A stretch of DNA of 64,000 bases, from assembly GCA_026392455.1 (NCBI GenBank), contig JAPLCB010000003.1:124001-188000 (forward strand), in the 5' to 3' direction. Source of the DNA: Propionibacteriales bacterium. GTDB lineage: Bacteria > Actinomycetota > Actinomycetes > Propionibacteriales > Nocardioidaceae. The stretch's first letter is position 1, and each line of letters begins with the position of its first letter. Below are positions 2,653 through 30,496 of the stretch, piece by piece. The notes beneath the pieces are model-generated. The model was not told where the DNA came from and did no database searches. It saw only the letters and a program-made list of their open reading frames with translations. The translations under genes were made by a program, and so were the position numbers.

Positions 2653-2914
2653 GAGGCGAGACGGCGGTCCCTCGTACCTTCCGTCACGAGGTCGACGACT
2701 CGACCCGGTGCCGGAGACGCGAGGGGTGCACGGAGGCCTCTGCTGTCCGGGCCGAGCCGGTGGGTGGTTCGTTCCGGTCAGGTAACGGGCACGCGCGTTG
2801 TCGTCCGGCTGGACGGCGCCCGCACCCGGGCCGGTGCAGCTGAGCCGTCCCACAGCCTCGCCGCGGCAGATTTCCCAACGTCTCGCTCCCGCGCGCGTCA
2901 CACCACCCTCAACC

Positions 2915-2958
2915 GCGCGGGAGGCCCGACTCGACAGCGCGGGAGGCCCGACTCACCA
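2915..2958 (-). repeat. 22-bp tandem repeat, two units (REP-like family, orientation B)
   Basis: Units at 2915-2936 and 2937-2958 share GCGCGGGAGGCCCGACTC and differ only in the last four bases. They are inverted relative to the pair at 2609-2652, so the 384-bp intergenic region is flanked by inverted copies. The same sequence recurs three times at 25041-25106. The repeat ends 21 bases before the relA stop codon. Confidence 0.75.
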
Positions 2959-2978
2959 GTGACTGGGCATGAAATCCG

Positions 2979-5375
2979 CTAGTGGGTGACCCGGTACGCG
3001 TCGAAGACCCCGTCGATGCTCCGGACGGCCTTGAGGATCGCGCCCAGGTGCTTGGGGTCGCCCATCTCGAAGGTGAACTTGCTCTTCGCGACCCGGTCGC
3101 GCGAGGTGTTGAGCGACGCCGAGAGGATGTTGACGTGCTGGTCGCTGAGGACCAGGGTGATGTCGCTCAGCAGGCGGGCCCGGTCCAGGGCCTCGACCAT
3201 GATCTGGACCAGGAACGTGCTCGTCGAGGTGGGCGCCCACTCGACGTCGACGAGACGCTCGGGCTGGCCGAGGAGGTCCGTGGCGTTGGTGCAGTCGCGG
3301 CGGTGGACCGAGACTCCGGCGCCGCGGGTGACGAACCCGAGGATCTCGTCGCCCGGCACCGGCGTACAGCACTTGGCGAGCTTGACCAGGACGTCCGAGC
3401 CACCCATCCCGGGAACGATGATGCCCGAGTCGCCCGGTGCCTTCTGCGAGCGCCGCGGCCGGGTGATGGTGACCGCCTCGGCCATGTCCTCGGCAGCACC
3501 GTCGGCTCCCCCGAAGATCTCGAGCACCTTGCGGACCACGGCCTGGGCGCCGATGTTGCCCTCACCCACGGCCGCGTAGAGGGCGGAGACGTCAGCCAGC
3601 CTGAACTCGGTGGCGACCTGGCTCAGCGACTCGTGCGTCATCACCCGCTTGAGGGAGACGCCCTCCTTGCGCATCAGCCGCGCGATGTCGTCCTTGCCGT
3701 GCTCGATCGCTTCCTCGCGGCGCTCCTTGGTGTACCAGTGCCGGATCTTGCTGCGGGCCCGCGGGGACTTCACGAACTGCAGCCAGTCGCGACTGGGCCC
3801 GGCGTTCGGTGACTTCGAGGTGAAGACCTCGACGACGTCGCCGTGGTCCAGCGACGACTCCAACGGCACCAGTCGCCCGTTCACCCGGGCACCGATGGTG
3901 TGGTGGCCGACCTCGGTGTGGACCGCGTAGGCGAAGTCGATCGGGGTAGAGCCCGTGGGGAGGCCGATCACGTCGCCACGGGGCGTGAAGACGTAGACCT
4001 CGGCGGCGTTGATCTCGAAGCGCAACGACTCCAGGAACTCGCCCGGGTCCTCGACCTCGTTCTGCCAGTCCAGGAGCTGCCGGACCCAGGGCATGTCGTT
4101 CGAGGCGGTGTCGGCCAGGGACTTGTCGGTATCGACGCCCGAGCGGACGTCCTCCTTGTACTTCCAGTGGGCCGCGACGCCGTACTCGGCCCGGCGGTGC
4201 ATCGCGAAGGTGCGCACCTGCATCTCGACGGCCTTGCCCTCGGGCCCGATGACGGTGGTGTGCAAGGACTGGTACATGTTGAACTTCGGCATCGCCACGA
4301 AGTCCTTGAAGCGACCCGGGATCGGGTTCCAGCGGTTGTGCAGGACCCCCAGGACGCCGTAGCAGTCCGGGTCCTCCTCGACCAGGATCCGGATCCCGAC
4401 CAGGTCGTAGATGTCGGTGAACTCCCGGCCACCGTGGATCATCTTCTGGTAGATCGAGTAGTAGTGCTTCGGTCGTCCCGTCACCCGGGCCTTGATCTTG
4501 GCCGCCTTCAGGTCCGTCTCGACGACGTCGATGACCTGGCGCATGAACTGGTCACGCGACGGTGACCGCTCGGCCACCATCCGGACGATCTCGTCGTAGA
4601 TCTTCGGGTGCAGGGTCGCGAAGGCGAGGTCCTCGAGCTCCCACTTGATCGTGTTCATACCGAGGCGGTGGGCCAGCGGCGCGAAGATCTCCAGGGTCTC
4701 GCGGGACTTCCGTTCCTGGGTCTCCGCCTTGACGTAGCGCAGCGTGCGCATGTTGTGCAGCCGGTCGGCGAGCTTGATCACCAGGACGCGGATGTCCTGG
4801 CTCATCGCCACGATCATCTTGCGGATGGTCTCGGACTGGGCCGAGTCGCCGTACTTGACCTTGTCGAGCTTGGTGACGCCGTCGACCAGGATCGCGACCT
4901 CGTCGCCGTAGTCCTTGCGGAGCTGGTCGAGGGTGTACGGCGTGTCCTCGACCGTGTCGTGCAGCAAGGAGGCGACCAGGGTCGGCTCGGTCATACCGAT
5001 GTCGGCCAGGATGGTGGTGACTGCGAGCGGGTGCGTGATGTACGGATCGCCGCTCTTGCGCATCTGACCGCGGTGGTGGAACTCAGCGGTCGCGTACGCG
5101 CGTTCGAGCAGGGCGAGGTCTGCCTTGGGATGGTTGGCGCGAACAGCGCGGAACAGCGGCTCGAGCTCGGGGTTCCCGACCTGCTTGCTGGTGCCGATCC
5201 GGGCCAGCCGGGCCCGGACGCCGCGGCCGCCGCTGAGCAGCGGGGACCCGGTCGGGGTCGCCCGGGGGTACTCGGTGACCGGCGGCCGGGACGGCGGCGG
5301 GGACGCGGTCGAGGAGATCTGCGGCTCGGCGCTCGCAGGCACCTCGACCTCCGAGACCACCCGTTCCTCCGCCAT
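2979..5375 (-). CDS. relA: Bifunctional (p)ppGpp synthetase/hydrolase RelA/SpoT (Rsh)
   Basis: A 798-residue long RSH enzyme that makes and degrades (p)ppGpp in the stringent response. Visible in order: a proline-rich N terminus; an HD hydrolase domain with [13 protein letters not shown] and the HD pair at about residues 139-140 (LLHDTVEDT); the synthetase domain with [20 protein letters not shown] near residues 355-375; a TGS domain ([23 protein letters not shown]); a conserved-cysteine stretch ([14 protein letters not shown]); and a C-terminal ACT domain. Catalytic motifs of both activities look intact and the length is normal. It follows apt with a 60-bp gap, matching the conserved secDF-apt-relA order. 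Confidence 0.97.
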
Positions 5376-27352: not shown

Positions 27353-27384
27353 GTTGCAAGGGTGGGGCCCTGCGGTGCTCCTAC
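27353..27384 (+). promoter_or_regulatory. ECF-type promoter P1 (sigma factor gene)
   Basis: GTTGCAAGG (27353-27361), 16-base spacer, CTCCTAC (27378-27384), followed by CTAGG. Identical boxes and spacing to P2 and P3 in this locus. Predicted start about 65 bases before the sigma factor GTG. Suggests positive autoregulation. Confidence 0.85.
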
Positions 27385-27454
27385 CTAGGTAACCACCCTG
27401 AGCAGGAGGACCGACCCGTGCCCGCAGACCCGAGCGTCTCAGTAGGATCCCAGC

Positions 27455-29119
27455 GTGGACGCGCTCTCGGGACCGACCGATGCCGAGCTGGTGGCACGCG
27501 TCCTGCAGGCCGACCGGGACGCCTTCGCGACCGTCTACGACCGGTACGGCCCTCGGCTCTACGACTTCGCCTACTCGATGCTGCGGCACCGCGAGGATGC
27601 CGCGGACGCGGTAGCCGACTCGTTCGTGACCTTGGCCGAGAAGCTCTCTCAGCTCCGCGAACCGGACCGGCTGCGCCCCTGGCTCTACGCCATCGTGCGC
27701 AGCGAGTGCCTGCGCCGGCTGAAGGCCCGGAAACGGGTCTCCTACGGCGACGACGAACAGCTGCTGGCGATGGCTGACGACGCAGCGACCCCGGAGCAGG
27801 CAGCCGAGCGAGCGATGCTGACCCAGCTCGTCTGGGACGCAGCCGCTGGTCTGGCCGACCGCGACCGCGCCCTGCTGGACCTGCACCTGCGCCAGGGGCT
27901 GGACGGCGCCGAGCTGGGTGAGGCGATGGGCGTCACCGCCGCCAACGCCTACGTGATGCTCAACCGGCTGCGTGCCCAGGTCGACCGCTCGCTGGGCGCG
28001 CTGATGATCGCGCGCCTGGGACGTGACGACTGCACCGAGCTCGACGTCCTGCTGGCCGACTGGGACGGCTCGTTCTCGCCGCTGATCCGGAAACGGGTCG
28101 CCCGCCACGTCGACGGGTGCGAGATCTGCGGCGAGCGCCGTACGAAGATCCTCAGCCCGTGGATGCTGCTGGCCGGCGTGCCGGTCTTCGTGGCGCCGCT
28201 CACGTTGCGCGATCGGGTCCTGGGCGACACCCAGCTGGTGGCCTACTCAGGTGCGCCGACCGCGTCGAGCGGCTGGAGCACCCGCGCCAAGGGTGCGGCC
28301 GCTGCGGCCGCACTGGTGGCCGCAGCCTCGGTCACCGCAGTGGTCTGGTCGAACGGCACGGACCCGACCACCGTCGCGGGCGCCCCGACCCCGTCGGTTC
28401 TGGACCCGTCATCAGCTTCTTCCGGGGGGGCGCTTCCGGGACTTCCCACCCCGGGCACGACCGCGGACCCGACGGGCGGGCCGGGCAGCGCGACCGCGTC
28501 GCCCTCGGCCCAGCCGTCCGTCGAGAGCACGCAGCTGCCCGGCACGCTCGCACTGTCCACCCGGTCGATCGACCTCGGACTGACCCGCACGAGCGGTTCG
28601 GTGCGGGTCAGCGGGAAGGGTGCCGTCCCGGTGACCTTCTTCGCGAGCTCGAACGCCGCCTGGCTCTCGGCGTCCCCGTCCTCGGACACCGTGACCGGGA
28701 CCTCGAGCACCACGATGGTCGTCACGGCGAATCGGGGCCGGGTCGCCGAAGGCACCTCGACCGGCCGGATCCAGCTGACCTGGAACGGCGGCTCGGCCAC
28801 GATCACGGTGACGCTGCGCCAGGAGAACGATCCGGTGGTCGGCAGGCCTGCGGCGCCCGCGGGCGCGTCGTGCTCGCTCCCGGTCGCCGTCGAGGCGTCC
28901 GACGACACCGGACTGGAGACGGTGAAGCTGCGCTGGTCCGGCCCCGACGGAACCGGCGGCACCCTGACGATGCAGCGGTCCGCGGGTCGCTGGGAGACCA
29001 CCATCGAACCGATCCAGCTCGGCGGCCCGTACACGCTGCGGGCGATAGCGACGGACAGCCGCGGAAACACCACCACCGGCCCGGCACTGACCCTGGACGT
29101 CAACCCCTGCCCGGGATAG
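27455..29119 (+). CDS. Membrane-spanning ECF sigma factor with zinc-finger, TM and extracellular BACON/Ig-like domains
   Basis: 554 residues. Sigma region 2 at about 12-85 (FATVYDRYGPRLYDFAYSM), sigma region 4 at about 125-182 (GLDGAELGEAMGVTAANAYVMLNRLR), an anti-sigma-like zinc motif (C193, H218, C222, C225, HVDGCEIC), one TM at about 280-298, a Pro/Ser/Thr linker, then a BACON-like beta domain at about 358-455 and an Ig-like domain at 465-554 with a Cys pair. So DNA-binding, regulator and sensor parts are in one polypeptide. Similar C-terminally extended ECF groups are described in actinobacteria. GTG start. Probably controls P1-P3 and thus the sortase and its neighbour. Confidence 0.85.
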   Translation: MDALSGPTDAELVARVLQADRDAFATVYDRYGPRLYDFAYSMLRHREDAADAVADSFVTLAEKLSQLREPDRLRPWLYAIVRSECLRRLKARKRVSYGDDEQLLAMADDAATPEQAAERAMLTQLVWDAAAGLADRDRALLDLHLRQGLDGAELGEAMGVTAANAYVMLNRLRAQVDRSLGALMIARLGRDDCTELDVLLADWDGSFSPLIRKRVARHVDGCEICGERRTKILSPWMLLAGVPVFVAPLTLRDRVLGDTQLVAYSGAPTASSGWSTRAKGAAAAAALVAAASVTAVVWSNGTDPTTVAGAPTPSVLDPSSASSGGALPGLPTPGTTADPTGGPGSATASPSAQPSVESTQLPGTLALSTRSIDLGLTRTSGSVRVSGKGAVPVTFFASSNAAWLSASPSSDTVTGTSSTTMVVTANRGRVAEGTSTGRIQLTWNGGSATITVTLRQENDPVVGRPAAPAGASCSLPVAVEASDDTGLETVKLRWSGPDGTGGTLTMQRSAGRWETTIEPIQLGGPYTLRAIATDSRGNTTTGPALTLDVNPCPG

Positions 29120-29150
29120 TTGCAAGGATCTAGCCACCCGGACCTCCTAC
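29119..29150 (+). promoter_or_regulatory. ECF-type promoter P2 (sortase gene)
   Basis: GTTGCAAGG (29119-29127), 16-base spacer, CTCCTAC (29144-29150). The -35 box begins in the last base of the sigma factor stop codon. The sortase GTG starts only 4 bases after the -10 box, implying a leaderless mRNA. Confidence 0.85.
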
Positions 29151-29154
29151 TCGT

Positions 29155-29766
29155 GTGAGAACACGAGAGCACGCAACGCGGACCGCCACGGTCTCGAAGA
29201 CCCTCGGCATCGCCCTGAGCGCCCTGAGCGCCCTGAGCGCCCTGACAGCGTGCTCGGGTGCTGGTCCGGCACCGGCGGTCCCGCCTCAGCCGGTGACGGT
29301 CGTCGCGACGGGTCCGGCGCCGCGGCACGTCGGCCGCCCGACGCGGGTCCAGATCCCTGCCATCGGGGTCGACGAAGCGCTGCACGGCGTCGGGCTGACG
29401 TCCGCGGGTGCGATGCAGACCCCCGACTTCGGCGATGCCGGCTGGTACGACCTCGGCCCACGCCCCGGCGCCCGGGGACCGGCCGTGATCGTCGCCCACG
29501 TCCACGGCCCGGCCGGGGACGACGTCTTCGCCGAGCTCGACGAGCTGGAGCCAGGCGACCGGGTGACCGTACGGCGCACCGACGGGACCACGGTCTTCAT
29601 CGTCGACGCCGTCGAGCAGACCAGGAAGGAAACGCTGCCGACCCGACGGATCTGGAACGAGACCGACCAGGCCGTCCTGCGGCTGATCACCTGCGGCGGC
29701 GAGCCCGACCCGGTCACCCGGATGTACCCCGACAACACGGTCGTCTACGCGCACGCGGTCGGCTGA
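29155..29766 (+). CDS. Sortase, class F-like, predicted lipoprotein
   Basis: 203 residues. N terminus has a signal peptide with lipobox LTAC (Cys33), so it is likely lipid-anchored instead of TM-anchored. Sortase core: PTRVQIPAIGVDEALHGVGL, catalytic His115 in VIVAHVHG, Cys180 in LRLITCGG, Arg189 in VTRMYPDNTVVYA. This matches actinobacterial class F sortases. The h-region is encoded by four 9-bp tandem units (29212-29247) giving an ALSALSALSAL core. The GTG at 29155 is the only upstream in-frame start. Likely substrate is the next gene product or other LPXTG proteins such as 19279-20001 (inference). Confidence 0.85.
   Translation: MRTREHATRTATVSKTLGIALSALSALSALTACSGAGPAPAVPPQPVTVVATGPAPRHVGRPTRVQIPAIGVDEALHGVGLTSAGAMQTPDFGDAGWYDLGPRPGARGPAVIVAHVHGPAGDDVFAELDELEPGDRVTVRRTDGTTVFIVDAVEQTRKETLPTRRIWNETDQAVLRLITCGGEPDPVTRMYPDNTVVYAHAVG
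29212..29247 (+). repeat. 9-bp tandem repeat in the sortase signal peptide
   Basis: GCCCTGAGC repeated three times exactly, with a fourth copy ending ACA. It encodes the Ala-Leu-Ser hydrophobic core; unit gain or loss would keep frame but alter h-region length. Confidence 0.85.
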
Positions 29767-29794
29767 AACGGTTCCAAAAAGTCTTGCCGAAAAA

Positions 29795-29826
29795 GTTGCA
29801 AGGACTTCTGGTCCCGGTGCTCCTAC
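29795..29826 (+). promoter_or_regulatory. ECF-type promoter P3 (secreted anchored protein gene)
   Basis: GTTGCAAGG (29795-29803), 16-base spacer, CTCCTAC (29820-29826), preceded by A-rich sequence as in P1. Expected 5' leader of about 60 bases before the ATG at 29894, with GAGGAG as ribosome-binding site. Confidence 0.85.
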
Positions 29827-29893: not shown

Positions 29894-30496
29894 ATGAACC
29901 GCACCATCCGCACCCTGATCATCGCCGGCCCGCTCGCTGCCGCCGCCCTGACCTTGACCCCCGGCGTCGCCAGCGCCGAGACCCCGGCACCCCACCCCGG
30001 TCCGGTCATCGTGATGCCGGCCGAGCCGGGCGACCCCGCGCCGAAGGACATCGCGATCCCCGAGCCGCAGCCGGAGCCGGGCCCGCAGGTCCCGGACGAC
30101 AAGGCCCCGGTCCCGCCGAAGGACACCGAGCCCGACCCGGCCCCCGAGGTTCCCGACCACAACGACGACATCACCGACGTCCCCAACTGCACCCACGGTT
30201 GCGGCGACGACGAGACCCCGGACTTCCCGCTCGACAGCGGCTGCTTCGAGGACTGCGACCTGCCCGAGGAGCCCCAGGACGAAACCCCGAAGGGCACCCA
30301 GGGTGCGCCCGAAGCCCCGCAGAACCAGGACACCGGGATCGTCACGCCGACCCGCGTCGACGCCGGCCTCGGTAGCCCGCTCGCCGAGAACGACGGCAGC
30401 GGCCTGGACCTGTCGTTCGTCCTGATCGGCGGTGCGCTGGTGACCGCAACGGGTGCGGCGTACGCCGCTCGCGCCCGCAACCGGCGTACCGCGTGA
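29894..30496 (+). CDS. Secreted Pro/Asp/Glu-rich protein with C-terminal membrane anchor (candidate sortase substrate)
   Basis: 200 residues. Signal peptide (IIAGPLAAAALTLTPGVASA), a long acidic proline-rich stretch (about 30-150) with two CxxxC pairs (C99/C103 and C117/C121), then TPTRVDAGLG at 151-160, a TM at about 172-192 and a basic tail ARARNRR. The tail has the tripartite shape of a sorting signal but no LPXTG; TPTRVDAG is the only conserved-looking motif before the TM. Strongly biased composition suggests an extended wall-spanning stalk. Third gene of the sigma-controlled locus. Confidence 0.8.
   Translation: MNRTIRTLIIAGPLAAAALTLTPGVASAETPAPHPGPVIVMPAEPGDPAPKDIAIPEPQPEPGPQVPDDKAPVPPKDTEPDPAPEVPDHNDDITDVPNCTHGCGDDETPDFPLDSGCFEDCDLPEEPQDETPKGTQGAPEAPQNQDTGIVTPTRVDAGLGSPLAENDGSGLDLSFVLIGGALVTATGAAYAARARNRRTA

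Follow-up and report, generated by a model that had tools for sequence, protein, structure and literature searches.

The 64,000-nt stretch of DNA analysed here (hereafter the window; contig JAPLCB010000003.1 of a Propionibacteriales bacterium, family Nocardioidaceae) contains a locus on the + strand that encodes an extracytoplasmic function (ECF) sigma factor with membrane-tethering and immunoglobulin (Ig)-like outer domains, a class F-like sortase and a secreted surface protein, each gene being preceded by the same promoter-like motif, GTTGCAAGG-N16-CTCCTAC. The features of this locus, with the evidence for each, are as follows:

27353-27384, + strand: promoter 1, before the sigma gene (exact match to the motif)
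27455-29119, + strand: ECF sigma factor of 554 amino acids (aa), with C-terminal membrane-tethering and outer domains (TIGR02937, Sigma70_r2, BACON_2)
27479-28018, + strand: sigma regions 2 and 4, aa 9-188 (AlphaFold model, matches to ECF structures)
28031-28129, + strand: anti-sigma-like zinc-ligand pattern C193, H218-x3-C222-x2-C225 (invariant residues)
28292-28348, + strand: likely membrane span, aa 280-298 (hydropathy; low model confidence)
28544-28822, + strand: outer Ig-like domain 1, about aa 364-456, with the BACON_2 match (Pfam, model, fold search)
28832-29110, + strand: second outer Ig-like domain, about aa 460-552, containing the invariant cysteines C473 and C552 (model, alignment)
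29119-29150, + strand: promoter 2, ahead of the sortase gene and sharing 1 base with the sigma stop codon (exact match)
29155-29766, + strand: class F-like sortase of 203 aa (Pfam Sortase, 75.6 bits, cut-off 26.6)
29795-29826, + strand: promoter 3, before the surface-protein gene (exact match)
29894-30496, + strand: secreted proline-rich surface protein of 200 aa, a likely sortase substrate (signal-like N-terminus, C-terminal hydrophobic stretch)
30347-30367, + strand: candidate sorting tag PTRVDAG (C-terminal; the sole match to the tag pattern in the genome)
30410-30466, + strand: span at the C-terminal end of the surface protein, aa 173-191, with a basic tail behind it (hydropathy, sequence)

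The three sites are exact and lie where the original prediction had placed them, each preceding a gene. At up to three mismatches, the motif was matched 4 times in the window, against a mean of 0.26 in shuffled sequence, and 4 matches were reached in none of 100 shuffles. The spacers agree pairwise at just 5-7 of 16 bases, so that a recent duplication of the promoter region, already discounted in the original prediction, is ruled out. The layout is that of ECF-type promoters, with two boxes at a spacing of 16-17 nt, read in the sense direction and placed before a gene. An AAC in the -35 box is a common feature of such promoters; the -35 box found here, AAAGTTGCAAGG, has none. The distance from CTCCTAC to the start codon is 70 nt for the sigma gene, 4 nt for the sortase gene and 67 nt for the surface-protein gene. 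The first base of promoter 2 is the last base of the TAG stop of the sigma gene, and the sole in-frame start of the sortase gene is a GTG at 29155. Since this codon follows the -10 box by 4 nt, the sortase message of the window would be leaderless or nearly so, and a leaderless message is possible; in most relatives the corresponding distance is about 28-36 nt. The neighbours of the module are genes for a CDP-alcohol phosphatidyltransferase and for a HIT-domain protein on the opposite strand.

The first gene product had been described as an ECF sigma factor joined to a zinc motif, a membrane segment and an extracellular BACON/Ig-like sensor. It scores 77.5 bits against TIGR02937 (cut-off 42.9), and its Sigma70_r2 and BACON_2 matches lie above the Pfam cut-offs. 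Over aa 6-185, its profile is matched by solved ECF structures such as SigH and SigW. Residues C193, H218, C222 and C225 are invariant in all 25 aligned relatives, as are the outer cysteines C473 and C552, and the segment after the zinc ligands is also strongly conserved. The matches to sigma region 4 and Big_13 fall below their cut-offs, and zf-HC2 is absent from the Pfam listing for this protein (a Gordonia homologue reaches 13.9 bits, under the cut-off). In the AlphaFold model, the predicted local distance difference test score (pLDDT) is mostly above 85 in region 2 and 70-80 in region 4, low in the zinc-ligand segment and the membrane span, and mostly above 90 in both Ig-like sandwiches. 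Hydropathy also marks a second hydrophobic stretch, at aa 232-250, with conserved prolines. The outer part, proposed to be a sensor, consists of two generic Ig-like sandwiches. The fold search found similarity to many Ig-like proteins, for example RbmA and pilus chaperones, by which a ligand is not indicated, and no carbohydrate-binding family was found for the outer part in the Pfam listing, the model or the fold search.

The sortase assignment is clear at the level of the Pfam family, and among nine NCBIfam families the class F model (NF033748) gave the best match (156 bits, E-value 5.7e-46), the class E model reaching just 26.3 bits (cut-off 160). None of the 25 aligned relatives lacks the catalytic His or Cys. 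The protein carries the sequence LTAC after a hydrophobic N-terminus, which we take to be lipobox-like by the usual lipobox rule. The enzyme had been called a lipoprotein sortase; the alignment shows a lipobox-like Cys in the window protein and in some of its relatives, and none in others. Contig scanning with the sortase query found no relative; in a search of solved structures the single sortase sequence likewise gave none, while a profile of the family aligned distant sortases.

The third gene product was predicted to be an anchored secreted protein, and the signal-like N-terminus, C-terminal span and basic tail agree with this, although no Pfam family was found for it. The prediction made no mention of its unusual sorting tag. 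In the surface proteins of the group, the span is preceded by a common P-[TNSK]-R-[IV]-D-A-G in place of an LPXTG-like pentapeptide.

In the whole genome (3,552,019 bases), the three window sites are the only exact matches to the motif. One further match at up to two mismatches was found on another contig (G000:C3:602188; G and L numbers denote genomes and loci of our set, and C numbers contigs), and the stricter pattern TGNAAGG-N16-CTCCTAC gave 4 genome sites and 0 in the control. This fourth, weaker site precedes a gene for a 200-aa protein with a signal-like N-terminus, a proline-rich body, a C-terminal span and a basic tail. Thus the genome-wide search that had been proposed as a check did not find the motif to be common without relation to surface genes, and the fourth site also stands before a gene for a surface-type protein. 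The regulon of three genes originally proposed has its three promoters but is wider, with this fourth site here and more in relatives. Relaxing the pattern to GCAAGG-N15-18-CTCCTAC yielded two extra matches on contig C6, which were rejected, both lying within long coding-like frames.

The motif also tracks the sigma gene among genomes. The family is represented by 197 genomes, of which 25 have the sigma gene, 20 a strict motif match and 14 both (Fisher's exact test, p = 1.3e-10). All 10 genomes with at least two strict sites carry the sigma gene, and none of the 172 sigma-negative genomes has as many (p = 1.7e-10). Single strict matches in six genomes lacking the gene were counted as background. 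Those of G146 and G150, which are sigma-bearing, may not be real: the former is almost identical in sequence to the match of G201, and the latter is not tied to a surface gene. In the Aeromicrobium sites seen, the -35 box often ends in AAGA and is missed by the strict pattern.

Relatives of the sigma factor were found in Nocardioides, Aeromicrobium, Pseudolysinimonas, Mycobacterium, Gordonia, Williamsia, Micromonospora and others; full-length orthologues (51-68% identity) are present in four genomes of the same genus (G019, G015, G007 and G018) and in one of another genus (G028), and the sigma gene of G001 is divided over two contigs. The set of relatives consisted of 80 of the 95 loci from a contig scan with the sigma protein. 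A first matrix built from 20 sites gave 79 matches above 12 bits in 2.36 million positions. In loci L134 to L164, all 66 of its matches, some of which had been among its training sites, were on the sense strand and before a frame matching the sigma factor, the sortase or the surface protein. A hold-out matrix was built from 16 sites of five close genomes, using the boxes only and allowing spacers of 15-17 nt, and 75 of the 80 loci were scanned with it. The five left out (L134, L140, L147, L150 and L155) belong to the training clade, L134, L140 and L150 being from training genomes; in L147 a site was found all the same, with a spacer of 17 nt and a score of 22.6 bits.

Above 15 bits, the hold-out matrix gave 89 matches, whereas five shuffled sets averaged 2.8. 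Fifty matches scored higher than any in the shuffled sets; 49 of the 50 share the strand of the sigma gene, and the spacers are 16 or 17 nt. Together with the window shuffles and the strict genome control, the hold-out shuffles rule out a chance origin of the sites. In the Nocardioides-Aeromicrobium-like group, the sigma gene has such a site in 23 of 26 cases, the sortase gene in 19 of 19 and the gene for a tag-bearing protein in 18 of 19 (the tagged-protein sites of L135, L148, L151, L157 and L158 being taken from the hold-out scan itself). The full locus is present in cultured relatives such as Nocardioides marmoriginsengisoli and Aeromicrobium ginsengisoli; the -10 box at the sortase gene of A. 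ginsengisoli is CTCCCAC. The sigma sites missed, in L151, L159 and L160, scored 12.2-14.8 bits, and the missing tagged-protein site, in L162, falls at a gene with a run of N upstream. The motif is thus kept in homologous loci, before the same three kinds of gene.

Sites also occur away from the sigma gene, before tag-bearing proteins in G015 and G204 and before tailed relatives in G007 and G018. A secreted family of about 640 aa with a common C-terminal domain carries the promoter in G019, G015, G007, G028, G213 and G198 (L116:6078-8003; also L118, L119, L122, L126, with two, and L128). Two members gave no Pfam family above the cut-off, and the family was not found in the window genome by a search that had no positive control.

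Similar sites occur in more distant loci. In the four Gordonia/Williamsia loci with a sortase (L170, L183, L186 and L200; 28-32% identity), a GTTGTTGCA- or GTGTTGCA-type box is followed by CTCCTAC (CTCCCAC in L186) at a spacer of 17 nt, with scores of 15.0-22.2 bits, and in L183 and L200 such sites stand before surface-protein genes. The sequence AAAGTGTCCGA...CTCCTAC was found in several Mycobacterium loci, and in some of these it precedes a small proline-rich gene near the sigma gene. In one of the Mycobacterium loci (L185:7351-10711), tandem sigma-like genes lie behind a small proline-rich gene, with CTCCTAC sites before and after. The -10 box may be older than its link to the sortase.

The tag is associated with the sortase. 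All 20 sortase-bearing loci of the group are accompanied by a tag-bearing protein, encoded within the locus in 18 cases and elsewhere in the same genome in 2 (L134 and L154). As a DNA pattern, the tag was matched 9 times in 24 genomes of the genus. Three of these genomes have a close orthologue of the sortase (the window genome itself and two with 82% and 81% sortase identity), and in them 4 of 4 matches were C-terminal anchors, versus 0 of 5 in the others (Fisher's exact test, p = 0.008). One of the four, a second G019 protein to which the tag alone had led, turned out to have a promoter of its own, at a spacer of 17 nt. These distributions suggest that P-x-R-[IV]-D-A-G is probably the sorting signal of the class F-like sortase. 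In G007, which lacks a close sortase orthologue, the corresponding sequence is PTRVHAG. Surface proteins of Gordonia and Williamsia have RVRFNTG (L183:10573-11448) or RITFDTG (L200, near 9384) before the span, perhaps a local form of the tag. In loci L294 to L297, from large genomes, small anchored proteins with VKTGVGG- or VDAGFGG-like stretches before the span are followed by sortase genes, and these stretches possibly represent a wider class F tag. Among nine sortase loci from large genomes, an ECF gene adjoins the sortase gene in one, and none had a promoter-matrix match above 3 bits among the best two matches given for each.

The original observation is confirmed as real and its interpretation is supported. 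Co-regulation of these genes by a conserved promoter is well supported by sequence comparison. The co-occurrence of the motif with the sigma gene, together with the oriented sites before sigma, sortase and substrate genes, indicates that the sites are probably promoters read by this sigma factor. As a whole, the data are best explained by a self-amplifying surface-anchoring regulon, to which we assign a probability of about 0.7. In this scheme, the C-terminal part of the sigma factor (zinc-ligand pattern, one span and two Ig-like domains) would hold the protein at the membrane until an envelope signal causes the sigma part to be freed or unmasked, regulated proteolysis being the likeliest route. 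Once released, the factor would read AAAGTTGCAAGG-N16/17-CTCCTAC-like promoters of its own gene, the sortase gene and the substrate genes, and the sortase would cut the C-terminal P-x-R-[IV]-D-A-G of the substrates, before the span and basic tail, and link them to the wall. We infer the sensing of the envelope by the outer domains and the release of the sigma part; proteolysis is the likeliest mechanism of release by analogy with related factors. A fuller proposition stands at about even odds, namely that P-x-R-[IV]-D-A-G (perhaps R-[IV]-x-F-[DN]-T-G in Gordonia/Williamsia) is a new signal without an L-P-x-T core, cleaved by the sortases of the group, within a closed circuit that is run by a one-protein transmembrane sigma factor whose -10 box CTCCTAC has been kept from Nocardioides to Mycobacterium relatives. 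Under this proposition, the factor itself may monitor the state of wall decoration.

Several observations weigh against the self-amplifying regulon. In the window genome, the motif count at up to two mismatches (4) equals that of the backwards control (4), and the second surface protein, the fourth member of the regulon, has no sorting tag. Eleven of the 25 sigma-bearing genomes have no strict match, and G040, G105, G145, G171, G201 and G211 have one each without a sigma gene. In some Nocardioides loci, the sigma gene itself is preceded by a drifted -10 box (CTCACAC, CTCTCAC or CTCGTAC), and the score stays under 15 bits for 3 of the 26 sigma sites. Many loci come from close relatives, so that independent events are fewer than the counts. 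As to the sortase, the class F match lies 10 bits under its cut-off of 166. Behind the Cys, the alignment shows no invariant Arg, but a D-N near the end that is nearly or fully conserved. The drifted box is CTCACAC in L151 and L160 to L164 (Nocardioides/Pimelobacter; CTCACAT in L160), and most sortase and substrate sites found in loci with a drifted sigma box keep CTCCTAC; self-activation may be weakened in such Nocardioides/Pimelobacter loci.

Other explanations can be proposed for the sites themselves. They could be promoters of another ECF sigma factor, with the membrane-tethered factor merely one of its targets, and further ECF-like genes are indeed present in the genome, where the sigma query gave 6 matches. 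However, the restriction of multiple strict sites to sigma-positive genomes (10 of 10, versus 0 of 172 sigma-negative ones) and the presence of sites before this very sigma gene in 23 of 26 loci make such an arrangement improbable. Two boxes at a fixed spacing could equally form the operator of a separate DNA-binding regulator, but the 49 of 50 strongest hold-out matches that point towards the gene, with spacers of 16 or 17 nt, are as expected of promoters, and no second regulator gene recurred in the loci looked at, among which no systematic search was made; we regard operators as highly improbable.

With the sites taken as promoters of the tethered factor, the functions of the tag and of the outer domains can also be read differently. 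The regulon may be real and the tag left uncleaved by this sortase, serving as a spacer before the anchor or being handled by another sortase or protease. Consistent with this are the untagged second regulon protein of the window genome, the promoter-bearing surface proteins without a tag in L137, L156 and the genome of L140 (G018), where the sigma loci contain no sortase, and the recognition of LPXTG by the one class F enzyme so far reported as tested (PMC13257024). On the other side, the pairing of tag and sortase in 20 of 20 sortase-bearing loci, and the restriction of C-terminal tags (4 of 4 matches, versus 0 of 5) to genomes that have a close orthologue of the sortase, make an uncleaved tag unlikely, though it deserves to be kept in mind. 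It is also conceivable that the outer domains are no sensor, the C-terminal part just tethering or stabilising a factor that is controlled by expression. The outer domains are similar to a wide range of unrelated Ig-like folds, and some Mycobacterium and Gordonia homologues have proline-rich tails in their place. Yet the zinc-ligand residues and the segment following them are strongly conserved, and truncated SCO4117 without its zinc finger, span and binding module is reported to activate its own gene (PMC5826349), so a purely structural C-terminal part seems unlikely.

SCO4117 of Streptomyces coelicolor, an ECF52 member, is described as combining a sigma domain, a zinc finger, a membrane region, a proline-rich stretch and a carbohydrate-binding domain (PMC5826349), and a review calls it the best understood factor of its kind and expects proteolytic activation of ECF48, ECF52 and ECF53 (PMC8999054). 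The window factor resembles ECF52-type factors by layout: it has the ECF sigma domain, a candidate zinc-finger-like segment, a predicted span, a proline-rich stretch and an outer domain, and autoregulation has likewise been proposed for SCO4117 (PMC5826349). It differs in having two Ig-like domains in place of the carbohydrate-binding domain, in its promoter (AAAGTTGCAAGG-N16-CTCCTAC, versus CSGYN-17-SRHA) and in its regulon, which comprises a sortase and its likely substrates where 29 developmental and antibiotic operons are reported for SCO4117 (PMC5826349). A parallel in gene content, compared by description, is sco3736-sco3738 of S. coelicolor, in which an ECF sigma gene, a lipoprotein/sortase gene and a membrane protein gene lie side by side; their joint induction, by 13-, 37- and 32-fold, is reported for a ppm1 mutant (PMC5882110). 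A comparable set occurs in our locus L298 (reverse strand, about 2914-5170), apparently Streptomyces-like, where genes for an anchored protein, a lipoprotein-like sortase, a short ECF factor (171 aa) and a small protein lie in a row. It differs from the window locus in its short ECF factor and gene order, and the promoter matrix found no site in L298.

Class F sortases are represented in the literature by the first enzyme tested, from Cutibacterium acnes, which is reported to recognise LPXTG (PMC13257024), and by SrtF1-4 of Actinoplanes missouriensis (PMC13251363). The window enzyme is like them in its best NCBIfam match and in its conserved His and Cys; it is unlike them in its sub-threshold score, its lack of an invariant Arg after the Cys and its likely tag, R-[IV]-D-A-G instead of LPXTG. 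The sortases characterised to date are all said to recognise signals with a PXT core, class E using LAXTG (PMC5148588). The window enzyme thus resembles class E as an actinobacterial sortase with a non-standard signal, but LAXTG retains X-T-G and the window tag does not. A literature search, judged mostly from titles and abstract openings, found no description of this regulon or tag. While the sigma layout is already known, the regulon of a class F-like sortase with its likely substrates, and a tag without the LPXTG core, therefore appear to be new.

According to a 2026 paper, the physiological roles of class F sortases are still unknown (PMC13251363). In the locus described here, a membrane-tethered ECF factor and a class F-like sortase occur together in one small regulon, for which the promoter is simple, the sortase definite and a candidate tag available. 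The hosts of this locus are soil bacteria, some of them named cultured strains, and it makes directly testable what class F sortases anchor, and when.

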